Of a DNA stretch of 64,000 nt, positions 50,599-54,484 are shown in pieces. The notes beneath the pieces are model-generated. The model did no database searches and had not been told where the DNA came from. It saw only the letters and a list, made by a program, of their open reading frames with translations. The stretch comes from a virus. The position numbers were made by a program, and so were the translations under genes. The DNA is taken from positions 51,010-115,009 of IMG/VR virus record IMGVR_UViG_3300007640_000030. The stretch is one strand, 5' to 3'. Within the stretch, counting starts at the first letter, position 1, and each line of letters begins with the position of its first letter.

Positions 50599-51306
50599 AT
50601 GGCATTACCAAAGTTAAACACCAGTCCATCGTATGAATGTACGATTCCCTCGACGGGGAAAAAAGTTTCATTCAGACCTTACTTGGTTAAAGAAGAAAAG
50701 GTCTTGATGATGGCAATGGAGACTCAAGACCAGAAACAGGCACTACGTGCGATTGTAGATACAATCGATGCGTGTATCACGAGTGAAGGTTTTCAGGGAA
50801 AGAAGTTGACAACCTTTGACATTGAGTATCTGTTCACTCAGATTAGGTCAAAGTCAGTTGGTGAGGTATCTACTATTTTGTTGAGATGTGAATCATGTGA
50901 TGCACAGAACGAGTATGAGATAGACATCTCCTCCGTTAAAGTAGAAGCACCCAATACCGAAAATGTTATTGAACTGAGTGACGGTGTTAGTGTTGAAATG
51001 AGATACCCAATGTACGAACATGTCAGTAAAGTCAATTTCACCGGAAAGGAAATTGAAATTGGATTCGCTATGGTTGGTGCGTGTATTCAGGCCGTCATCA
51101 CAGGAGACGAAAGGATCGAGGCGGACGAAGTTTCCAAGACAGAGATCAATGAGTTTCTTGAGTCAATGACGCAGGGTCAGTTTAAGAAACTGGCAGACTA
51201 CCTTGAGAGTCTACCCGCACTGAGACACAATGCAGAATATACCTGTAATAAGTGTGGGGAAGAAAACAAACAGATGTTAAGGGGAATGTCGGATTTTTTA
51301 TCATAA
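50599..51306 (+). CDS. gp26: Baseplate hub assembly protein gp26, with putative zinc site
   Basis: This 235-residue protein (T4 gp26: 208) has the family start MALPKLNTSPSYECTIPSTGKKVSFRPYLVKEEKVLMMAMETQDQ. Two CxxC pairs (C97/C100 in LLRCESCDAQ, C216/C219 in TCNKCGEEN) suggest a zinc finger, seen in marine T4-like gp26 proteins. It ends in a slippery sequence (T TTT TTA at 51294-51300), where ribosomes could slip into the -1 frame and continue for 63 residues. The AGGAG ribosome site lies 7 bases from the ATG. Synteny 26-51-tape measure matches T4 order. Confidence 0.9.
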   Translation: MALPKLNTSPSYECTIPSTGKKVSFRPYLVKEEKVLMMAMETQDQKQALRAIVDTIDACITSEGFQGKKLTTFDIEYLFTQIRSKSVGEVSTILLRCESCDAQNEYEIDISSVKVEAPNTENVIELSDGVSVEMRYPMYEHVSKVNFTGKEIEIGFAMVGACIQAVITGDERIEADEVSKTEINEFLESMTQGQFKKLADYLESLPALRHNAEYTCNKCGEENKQMLRGMSDFLS

Positions 51307-51491
51307 ACCTTTCTCATGATAATTTGGTCAATTATTTTAAGACCAACTTTTCATTAATGCAACATCATCATTACAGTCTAACAGAACTTGAAATGATGAT
51401 GCCATGGGAAAGGGAAATTTATGTTACATTATTGGTTGAGTGGATTAAAGAAGAGAATGAACGTAGACAACAAGAATCCAAAATGAGATAA
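51252..51491 (+). CDS. gp51: gp51-like hub assembly extension in the -1 frame
   Basis: This -1 frame open region after gp26 encodes about 63 residues from 51300: IINLSHDNLVNYFKTNFSLMQ, then HHHYSLTELEMMMPWEREIYVTLLVEWIKEENERRQQE. Similar short sequences are annotated as gp51 in marine T4-like phages. A GTG at 51252 and an ATG at 51357 are possible internal starts but neither has a ribosome site. It most probably is made as a C-terminal extension of gp26 (about 297 residues in all), like the lambda G-GT tail assembly chaperones. The tape measure gene starts four bases after its stop. Confidence 0.65.
   Translation: MWGRKQTDVKGNVGFFIINLSHDNLVNYFKTNFSLMQHHHYSLTELEMMMPWEREIYVTLLVEWIKEENERRQQESKMR
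51279..51346 (+). promoter_or_regulatory. Probable programmed -1 ribosomal frameshift site
   Basis: The heptamer T TTT TTA (51294-51300) lies in the gp26 frame, six bases before its stop at 51304. It is preceded by AAGGGGA (51279-51285), a Shine-Dalgarno-like element ending 8 bases upstream, which stimulates -1 slippage in bacteria. A 6-base-pair stem (TTGGTC 51324-51329, GACCAA 51341-51346) lies 23 bases downstream, farther than the usual 5-9 bases. After slippage, reading continues ATC ATA AAC into the -1 frame. Confidence 0.7.
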
Positions 51492-51495
51492 ACCA

Positions 51496-53799
51496 ATGGC
51501 AGAAGCAACAATAGGTGGTTTGGGTAATGTTATTGACTTGATGCGTCAAGAAAATAATAACCGTAACCAAGCGCTCCAAAGAAGTCAAGAAGGGACAGAG
51601 AAGAATACCTCTGATCTCAATAAGACTATGCGTGAGATTCTCGCAGAGATAAAACAGGATCGTTTGCAGAACGAAGAAGATCGACGAGACAAGAAAAAAG
51701 AAAAAGCACCTATTTTCAAAGCACCTGAAATAAAATTAGACAAATCCTTTAGTGGTATCCTTTTGGGTCTTGGCGCTGTGATAGGCGAGACCGTAAGAAG
51801 AATCAAAGACATGGTGCAACGGTTTTTCGGTGCTGTTAAACTGGCGTTTTCTAGACTATTTTCTGTAGCTGGTATAACGAATCTAACGAAAGGTCTCCAG
51901 AGATCTATAACAAATTTCTACAAAGCGTTTAGAGGTGGTTTCTTCAAAGCCCTAGATGGATCATTAAGATACAACCTTAGAGAGGCCAACGGTAAATTCA
52001 AGAAAATGAATTTTGCCGAAAGAATGGTTTCTAATATAGGGAAGATATTTGGTTTCATAGCAAGACCATTCAATGCGATTATCAAATGGTGGAATGCATC
52101 CAAACTTGGTTCGTTCACAAACTCTATCGTCCAAAAAGTGTTTGGTTTTTTTGGAAAAATATTTGGTTTTCTAGGAGACACACTTAAGGCTACCATTGGT
52201 GTTGGTGATGATCTTTTCAAGGCTGGCGGTAATAAGATCATGTCTTTGGTGAAAGGTGTATTCACCAAACTTCTTTGGCCTATTCAAATTATTATTTCAC
52301 TCTTCGACTTCTTCACCGGATTCTTGGGTGACTGGCAAAGAACCGCCGAATCTGATATGAACATCTTTACCAGAATTCTAAGTGCAACTTGGGAAGGTCT
52401 CAAAGGTGTGTTCGTTGGTTTCTTCGGTACTATTGGTGATTTACTGCAAGACGGAATGAAGTGGATACTGGACAAGATTGGTCTTGGTTCTGTTACGGAT
52501 AGAATCAACGAACTAATGCCTGGCGGTATTAGTGGAATGATAGCATCCATATTTGATTGGGTTCGTAAACTATTCAGTTCACCAATCGAAGCGTTGAAAG
52601 ATATCTTCACCCAGTTCATACCTTGGATGGGTCAATTTGCACAGACCATGTTCATGAATCTCGCAGACATGGTTAAGTGGGGATTGAAGGGGATATGGGG
52701 AGGTCTGACCTACGTATTCACTGACGTTCTCCCTAGTCTCTTCGCGTGGTTGGATGAGACAATGACCGCATTTAAAGAATCCCTATTTACGTATGCATCA
52801 GAGACATTTGATTATCTTATGGGAATTCCGGGCAGAATAGGTGAGTCGTTTATGGGCGCCTATGATGCAGTAATTGACTGGTGGGAAAACGAACCCGACA
52901 AATGGGGAAGTATGGTGGATTCAGCTACCCAACTTTGGGAAGATATTAAAAATTGGGTAAGCAATATATTTTCAGATGCATGGGATGCATTGACGGATTG
53001 GTGGGATGATGAAACTGATACTGCCGCAATGAGAGATAATCCACCAGAGACTAATGATGCAGTAGATACCGAAACTCGACCACCTCCTCCTCCGCCTGAG
53101 AGACCTCAGACAGCCTCACGTAGGACTCGTAACCGACCTCGCCCTCAATTAGGGACATCCGGTCAAGAACCAGAAGAACCCATGTCAGGTTTACCACCAT
53201 CAGACGATATTGTTGCTTTGGGTGAATGGTTGCAGGGAAAAGGACTACATGTATCTGGCCACGAGGCATTTGGTGAAGTTGGAACACATGGTGAAAACTC
53301 CAGACACTATAGGGGTGACGCATTAGATATTAACTTTGTCGGTCCTAATGATGAACGTTATGTTGAGGCAGACAATCCCGAACAGGCTGCGGTCTTCGAT
53401 GTACTACGCGATAAATTAGAAACCGCAGGTTATAGTGTGATGTGGAGAACTGGTGGTCACATGGATCACATGCATGTGTCTAAAGGCACTCAAGAAGGAA
53501 CGGCTGAATACCGAAGAGAACGATTGGCATCAATGAACGCGAGAGGTATACCAGCGCCAGGTTCTCCACAAGCGCCTGGCACAACATCAAGAACCATGGC
53601 GGGAACTCAACTTGCAAATGCAGGGAATATGGGTGCGGGTGGTGGTAATCCTATTATTATGCAGACTAACGTTGGTGGGTCTTCTTCGTCAACACAAGTC
53701 AATAATAACAGTACTCAAGCGGCAGTCATTCCAAGTGTGTGGGATGTAAACGCCGCCTTCTTGACGAACAATCAGGCGGGCGCATTACCTATAACCTAA
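51496..53799 (+). CDS. gp29: Tape measure protein (gp29 position) with M15 peptidase domain
   Basis: This 767-residue protein begins with a helical, charged region (about 1-75). A long stretch of hydrophobic and amphipathic helices (about 80-500) follows, with Phe/Trp/Gly-rich segments such as KIFGFIARPFNAIIKWW and KVFGFFGKIFGFLGDTLKATIG, as expected for a tail-tube core and membrane-passing tape measure. A Pro-rich linker (520-560) leads to an M15 metallopeptidase domain: SRHYRGDALDI (H604, D611) and GHMDHMHVS (H660), the family's SxHxxGxAxD and HxH motifs. This domain could cut cell-wall peptides on injection. T4 gp29 is 590 residues and, to my knowledge, lacks this domain. Confidence 0.85.
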   Translation: MAEATIGGLGNVIDLMRQENNNRNQALQRSQEGTEKNTSDLNKTMREILAEIKQDRLQNEEDRRDKKKEKAPIFKAPEIKLDKSFSGILLGLGAVIGETVRRIKDMVQRFFGAVKLAFSRLFSVAGITNLTKGLQRSITNFYKAFRGGFFKALDGSLRYNLREANGKFKKMNFAERMVSNIGKIFGFIARPFNAIIKWWNASKLGSFTNSIVQKVFGFFGKIFGFLGDTLKATIGVGDDLFKAGGNKIMSLVKGVFTKLLWPIQIIISLFDFFTGFLGDWQRTAESDMNIFTRILSATWEGLKGVFVGFFGTIGDLLQDGMKWILDKIGLGSVTDRINELMPGGISGMIASIFDWVRKLFSSPIEALKDIFTQFIPWMGQFAQTMFMNLADMVKWGLKGIWGGLTYVFTDVLPSLFAWLDETMTAFKESLFTYASETFDYLMGIPGRIGESFMGAYDAVIDWWENEPDKWGSMVDSATQLWEDIKNWVSNIFSDAWDALTDWWDDETDTAAMRDNPPETNDAVDTETRPPPPPPERPQTASRRTRNRPRPQLGTSGQEPEEPMSGLPPSDDIVALGEWLQGKGLHVSGHEAFGEVGTHGENSRHYRGDALDINFVGPNDERYVEADNPEQAAVFDVLRDKLETAGYSVMWRTGGHMDHMHVSKGTQEGTAEYRRERLASMNARGIPAPGSPQAPGTTSRTMAGTQLANAGNMGAGGGNPIIMQTNVGGSSSSTQVNNNSTQAAVIPSVWDVNAAFLTNNQAGALPIT

Positions 53800-54155
53800 A
53801 GACCTAGTTCCAGTTGACGTATCTTGGTTGCGGAGATTGACTCAACCTCTTCCCCCAGATCTTCCTGCTCAATCGTGTATCCAACATCCCGACCATAGGT
53901 GATATGGGTGATGTTAGGTACAGCGATTATCACAAAGTCTTTATGGTGTTCATACCCTTCTTTTGCAAGTTCGAGTATGATGTTTGCCTTACGTTCCTCT
54001 ACGGTGTAAGGATTACTTTCGTCTACCTCAGTGTCACGAAGTAGTATCGCTACTTGACCAGTCTTTGAAAGGGCCCGTTCAAATAACTTAGTATGCCCTT
54101 GGTGCCACGGTTGAAACCTTCCAAGGAGTTGCGTAGTTGGTTTAAGTCGATCCAT
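53796..54155 (-). CDS. Nucleotidyltransferase, HxGH family (NMNAT/PPAT-like)
   Basis: This 119-residue protein has LLGRFQPWHQGHTKLFERAL (H18-x-G-H21, the nucleotide-binding HxGH motif) and ends SISATKIRQ, the counterpart of the ISGTxIR motif of adenylyltransferases and cytidylyltransferases. GRFQPxHxGH is closest to NMN adenylyltransferases. It starts inside the 3' end of the kinase gene but has its own GGAGG ribosome site, 7 bases before the ATG. Its stop overlaps the tape measure stop on the other strand. Confidence 0.75.
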   Translation of the reverse strand: MDRLKPTTQLLGRFQPWHQGHTKLFERALSKTGQVAILLRDTEVDESNPYTVEERKANIILELAKEGYEHHKDFVIIAVPNITHITYGRDVGYTIEQEDLGEEVESISATKIRQLELGL

Positions 54156-54484
54156 TCTTTAACCTCCAGATCATATGAATCAGGTACTTCGAATAACTTA
54201 TTAGTATCCTCGAATCGTCCTTCATCGATTGTATTCATCCAGATGGTGAAGTCGGCTTCTACGATATCACGGAGCTCCTTCAACGGACAAACAAAATCCA
54301 GAATTCCAACCTGATCGGCCATTCTTTTGGCCTGTCTTAACCTACCTTCGGGTGAGAAGTCCCAGTCATCAAACATCTCACGGTACGTATCCGCATTGTG
54401 ATGCGGAATCAGAAAATGGTAAGCCAACTCCCTTGCGAGAGTTGACTTCCCACTGCCCGGCAATCCAAGTATTAAAATTTTCAT
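54050..54484 (-). CDS. P-loop kinase, APS-kinase-like
   Basis: This 144-residue protein starts MKILILGLPGSGKSTLARELAYHF (P-loop GLPGSGKST, 7-15), then HNADTYREMF (substrate-side Asp), FSPEGRLRQAKRMADQ (counterpart of the FSxEDR segment of APS kinase) and FVCPLKELRD. The last 35 residues overlap the following nucleotidyltransferase in another frame. Whether the sulfur substrate is used is unknown; nucleotide or polynucleotide kinases are alternatives. With the neighbouring nucleotidyltransferase it forms a nucleotide-modifying pair. Confidence 0.65.
   Translation of the reverse strand: MKILILGLPGSGKSTLARELAYHFLIPHHNADTYREMFDDWDFSPEGRLRQAKRMADQVGILDFVCPLKELRDIVEADFTIWMNTIDEGRFEDTNKLFEVPDSYDLEVKEWIDLNQLRNSLEGFNRGTKGILSYLNGPFQRLVK

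Follow-up and report, generated by a model that had tools for sequence, protein, structure and literature searches.

A probable -1 ribosomal frameshift linking gp26 to a gp51-like domain upstream of the tape measure gene in an uncultured phage

The tail assembly chaperones of phages lambda (G/GT) and P2 (E/E+E') are made in a short and a long form through a -1 frameshift located just upstream of the tape measure gene, and the locus described here has the same layout. In the lambda system the roles of the short and long forms are coating of the tape measure protein and tethering of the tail-tube subunits; the lambda heptamer is G_GGA_AAG, unlike the T_TTT_TTA of the present locus. For the T4-like phages, the abstract of Vladimirov, Gautam and Davidson is said to report frameshifting as conserved in several groups, and T4 itself reportedly uses genes 26 and 51.

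The passages of two later papers that take up this work relate that in some T4-like phages the short form and the fused long form are encoded by separate genes (PRFect, PMC10274946, citing Vladimirov, Gautam & Davidson 2022), and that polyT -1 frameshift signals occur in T4-like TAC-N genes (PMC12846349, citing the same study). The first-pass annotation of the locus was not aware of a described gp26/gp51 frameshift; by these accounts such a frameshift in T4-like phages has been in the literature since 2022 (Virology 566:9-15). Since the T4-like chaperone genes were thus already identified, the frameshift reported here is not a new idea. As far as these accounts describe them, the published chaperones share with the present locus the gp26/gp51 family, the position and a T-rich slip site; they differ in that the DNA studied here comes from another, uncultured phage.

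Gene order and features of the locus

The window, that is, the whole 64,000-nucleotide stretch that was analysed, comes from the 115-kb record of an uncultured virus. Its plus strand encodes, in this order, a head closure protein, a DNA end protector, a tail tube-type protein, gp26, a gp51-like tail in the -1 frame, and the tape measure protein (Table 1). The gp26 family was recognized by matches to Pfam PF12322 (T4_baseplate, E 5e-60) and phrog_150 (E 3e-63), and the -1 frame tail matches phrog_634 (baseplate hub assembly catalyst, E 1.3e-27). The gp26 frame ends with the codons AGG GGA ATG TCG GAT TTT TTA TCA TAA. Direct reading and translation confirmed two statements of the first-pass annotation, namely that T TTT TTA stands in the correct phase at the end of gp26, and that the gp51-like frame stays open for 63 codons and ends four bases before the tape measure start.

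Table 1. Coordinates of features in the window
Feature	Position	Strand	Remarks
gp26 (TAC-N; most likely the short tail assembly chaperone)	50599..51306	+	235 aa, zero frame
SD-like AAGGGGA	51279..51285	+	8-base gap to heptamer
Slippery heptamer T_TTT_TTA	51294..51300	+	In phase X_XXY_YYZ, within gp26 frame
TAC-C ('gp51' tail), -1 frame extension	51300..51491	+	63 codons + stop (51489-51491)
Zero-frame stop TAA	51304..51306	+	3 bases past heptamer
Candidate stem-loop	51316..51354	+	Inner arms 51324-51329/51341-51346, outer arms 51316-51319/51351-51354
gp26-51 (TAC-NC), predicted frameshift product	50599..51491	+	297 aa, deduced from sequence
Tail length tape measure protein gene	51496..53799	+	767 aa, ATG at 51496; phrog_4200, phrog_58 tape measure E ~5e-14
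Nucleotidyltransferase ORF	53796-54155	-	
P-loop kinase ORF	54050-54484	-	

It is nearly certain, as judged from sequence, that programmed -1 ribosomal frameshifting lets a single start at this locus yield both a short and a long tail assembly chaperone. That slippage occurs, its rate, and the chaperone function of the products are what we infer. In the mechanism proposed, the majority of ribosomes would terminate after gp26. A minority would pause while the internal SD-like AAGGGGA pairs with 16S rRNA, and the paused ribosomes would slip by one base, from GA T TTT TTA to TTT TTT. They would then append the helical TAC-C to form gp26-51, whose predicted sequence runs ...D-F-L (residue 234), followed by the 63 residues encoded by 51300-51488. 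By analogy with lambda G/GT, both forms would act on the tape measure protein, which is made next, by coating and holding it: gp26 would form the coat, and the C domain would help to tether the tail-tube subunits.

Residues 597-662 of the tape measure protein include a weak M15-peptidase-like stretch (Pfam E 0.026), and phrog_13339 matches over the same residues (E 6e-7). On the minus strand, at 53796-54484, two overlapping ORFs in a -1 relation to each other jointly match one 230-residue family, phrog_10255. As the nucleotidyltransferase ORF, the second of the pair, has its own GGAGG just upstream of its ATG, this pair looks like a split two-domain enzyme, not a frameshift.

Conservation of the slip site and translation of the gp51 frame

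Relatives of gp26 were gathered from IMG/VR and from isolates, giving 163 distinct loci in which the gp51 domain was sought by profile in all three frames, with no slip site assumed. T_TTT_TTN is present in 159 of the 163 loci. The gp51 domain was detected in 154 loci, and in all 154 it lies in the -1 frame; after clustering at 50% identity (28 representatives), it lies in the -1 frame in 27 of the 27 that were readable. With motif, phase and -1 frame kept in 159/163 loci, chance is untenable as an explanation. The heptamer, its phase and the upstream SD-like element, whose conservation the first-pass annotation had proposed to examine, are kept in relatives. The amino acid before the T run varies (S, D, N, A, G), and the third base of its codon is always T. 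The Phe codon at the site is invariably TTT, versus 70% TTT among the Phe codons of these genes.

The heptamer carries no weight alone, because TTTTTTA occurs 14 times in the window against 14.3 expected; rarity of the motif was accordingly dropped as evidence, there being no enrichment. A sequencing slip is unlikely, since the run of six T is shared by six loci from other metagenomes with 100% identical gp26 (L001-L005, L023).

The four loci without T_TTT_TTN are two T4-group coliphages, which have gp51 on the other strand, and two distant relatives, Vibrio phage K351 and Aeromonas phage phiA8-29. In the latter two, A CTT TTC replaces the T run (at ~3145-3170 in L090, the K351 locus, and ~3230-3255 in L091, the phiA8-29 locus) and the -1 frame is still open; these phages may use a different slip or reinitiation. 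An ATG overlaps the gp26 stop in K351, and a scan with K351 gp26 as the query found no relatives. Among six further isolates, the canonical site was present in five (S-CAM1, ACG-2014b, pf16, phiM9 and AsFcp_2), and the sixth, Acinetobacter W16, is another split-gene case.

GenBank records annotate gp51 as a separate protein, which would require a small product initiated in its own frame (at the internal ATG 51357 or the upstream GTG 51252, or by termination-reinitiation near the gp26 stop). An ATG does overlap the gp26 stop in 8 loci, and 107 have one for the internal Met, but the annotated starts fall at various internal codons and disagree between records. From the last stop to the heptamer, the -1 frame contains no ATG, GTG or TTG in 150 of 159 loci, and in 22 of 155 loci no possible start codon occurs anywhere before the conserved internal Met. 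Unless unusual start codons are used, the conserved peptide of these 22 loci could therefore come only from ribosomes that had begun on gp26. Purifying selection acts in the -1 frame on the 18 codons that separate the heptamer from the Met (pN/pS 0.20), and the conserved Met is preceded by no SD-like sequence, the mean duplex dG being near 0 or positive. A separate gp51 would also leave the invariant T6 run and the T4 fusion described below unexplained. An independent start, which is very unlikely, was rejected on the start-codon, pN/pS and SD evidence; the earlier view that the gp51-like frame has no usable start of its own is supported. Slippage of RNA polymerase on the T6 run, yielding mixed messenger RNAs and no ribosomal slippage, is extremely improbable. 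The run of six T is present, and reaches eight in some relatives; a run of this length is usually a poor substrate for transcriptional slippage. The run stays in strict codon phase and is preceded by a selected SD-like element that only a ribosomal mechanism would need.

Ribosomal frameshifting into the gp51 frame is thus the preferred reading. What the sequences themselves show is the slip site with its phase and conservation, selection acting both on the -1 frame and on the SD-like element, and a fusion that is homologous to T4 gp51. The outcomes set against it beforehand (an unreachable gp51 frame, an internal Met start, an unconserved slip site) were not found. A joined gp26-51 product is annotated in none of the 21 isolate records examined; in isolate records with a -1 frame tail, gp51 is missing or is given its own start, which varies by record. 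Annotation as the gp26-51 frameshift product is indicated for the GenBank 'gp51' of cyanophages and their relatives.

Recoding signals around the slip site

The AAGGGGA reported by the first-pass annotation as ending eight bases upstream of the heptamer was confirmed. Its duplex with the anti-SD sequence has a dG of -8.3 kcal/mol in the window, and the mean over 159 loci is -6.7 kcal/mol at the site versus -1.3 kcal/mol at control positions. The Glu before the conserved Gly is encoded by GAG in 72 of 95 cases at the site, versus 14 of 65 Glu-Gly pairs elsewhere (p 1e-11); after thinning, the bias has p 9e-5 on 55 representatives and is not significant on 28. This excess of GAG at the site argues that the SD-like element, which lies ~8 bases upstream, has been selected and retained beyond the need for the amino acids. 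AAGGGGA is probably a ribosome-pausing stimulator. The dnaX gene of E. coli has a stimulating SD-like element ~10 bases upstream of its heptamer, comparable to the site in the window; dnaX depends in addition on a hairpin close downstream, whereas the stem in the window begins 15-23 bases away.

The 6-bp stem noted 23 bases downstream of the heptamer was likewise found on inspection, with the outer arm beginning 15 bases past the heptamer. In the lineage of the window, covariation of the stem is 0.207, versus 0.104 in shuffled and <=0.097 in slid controls (13 distinct sequences), and 77.6% of cells in the 6-bp stem are paired. As a classic stimulator this stem was set aside, its support being moderate at that level of pairing; a 23-base spacer is too long for one, and the stem may be incidental.

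Cyanophage-like relatives have a hairpin 5-10 bases past the heptamer, with a best stem of 7.9 bp versus 5.6 bp under synonymous recoding, and its paired changes exceed those of shuffled and slid controls. Hairpins ~6-10 bases past the heptamer were observed in L081, L096, L101, L110, L120, L140, L150 and others, that of L150 being AAGTATGGCTCA...TGAGTCATACTT. The chances are evenly divided that marine T4-like phages carry a selected recoding module of three parts, comprising the SD-like element, T_TTT_TTN and a hairpin that varies in sequence and position between lineages. In cyanophages this hairpin covaries and lies 5-10 bases from the heptamer, and in the lineage of the window the distance is 15-23 bases. 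If such a module exists, the stand-alone 'gp51' gene in hundreds of records is an annotation error. The SD-like element and the covarying cyanophage hairpin are possibly new details relative to the published T4-like frameshift, and the cyanophage loci would offer a simple test system for a recoding signal composed of these two elements.

Protein products and comparison with T4

An AlphaFold2 model of TAC-N is alpha/beta (mean pLDDT 88.7) and one of TAC-C is all-helical (pLDDT 84.3). A PDB search with the TAC-N model gave a probability >0.7 only for two chains of the HK97 tail assembly chaperone (2OB9; 0.80 and 0.72), with E ~0.8 to 1.1 and only ~89 columns aligned; this predicted structural match is suggestive, though not significant by E-value. 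Structures searched with the 65-residue TAC-C model gave nothing significant, the best match being a T4-type gp51 (E 0.76). No solved relatives of TAC-N were found by sequence, and a search of plasmids for the fused protein was likewise negative.

The profile of fused TAC-N and TAC-C aligns with T4 gp51 at positions 76-279 of 295, crossing the frameshift junction (E 3e-13 against 5000 shuffles), and T4 gp26 aligns with it over the N part only. T4 gp51 also has matches to PF12322 (residues 1-201) and to phrog_634 (residues 147-246). By these alignments, T4 gp51 is the same protein in the form of an ordinary in-frame fusion of the N and C domains. As profile, PHROGs and Pfam agree, T4 uses two genes where these phages use one. 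The proposal that gp26 and gp26-51 are the T4-type equivalent of G and GT is supported by this natural fusion, and the comparative evidence in relatives makes it most likely that they are the short and the long form of the tail assembly chaperone.

The first-pass annotation gave T4 genes 26 and 51 as adjacent; they are indeed neighbours, but they lie on opposite strands, which corrects that background, and T4 is therefore unable to use a gp26-gp51 frameshift. By the sequence evidence, the majority of the T4-like phages sampled would use the lambda-type strategy of a short and a long chaperone, and T4 is the exception, in which a second gene would have replaced slippage. T4 resembles the present locus in having gp26 as the N domain and gp51 as a single chain of N and C domains, and differs from it in encoding them as two separate genes with no frameshift.
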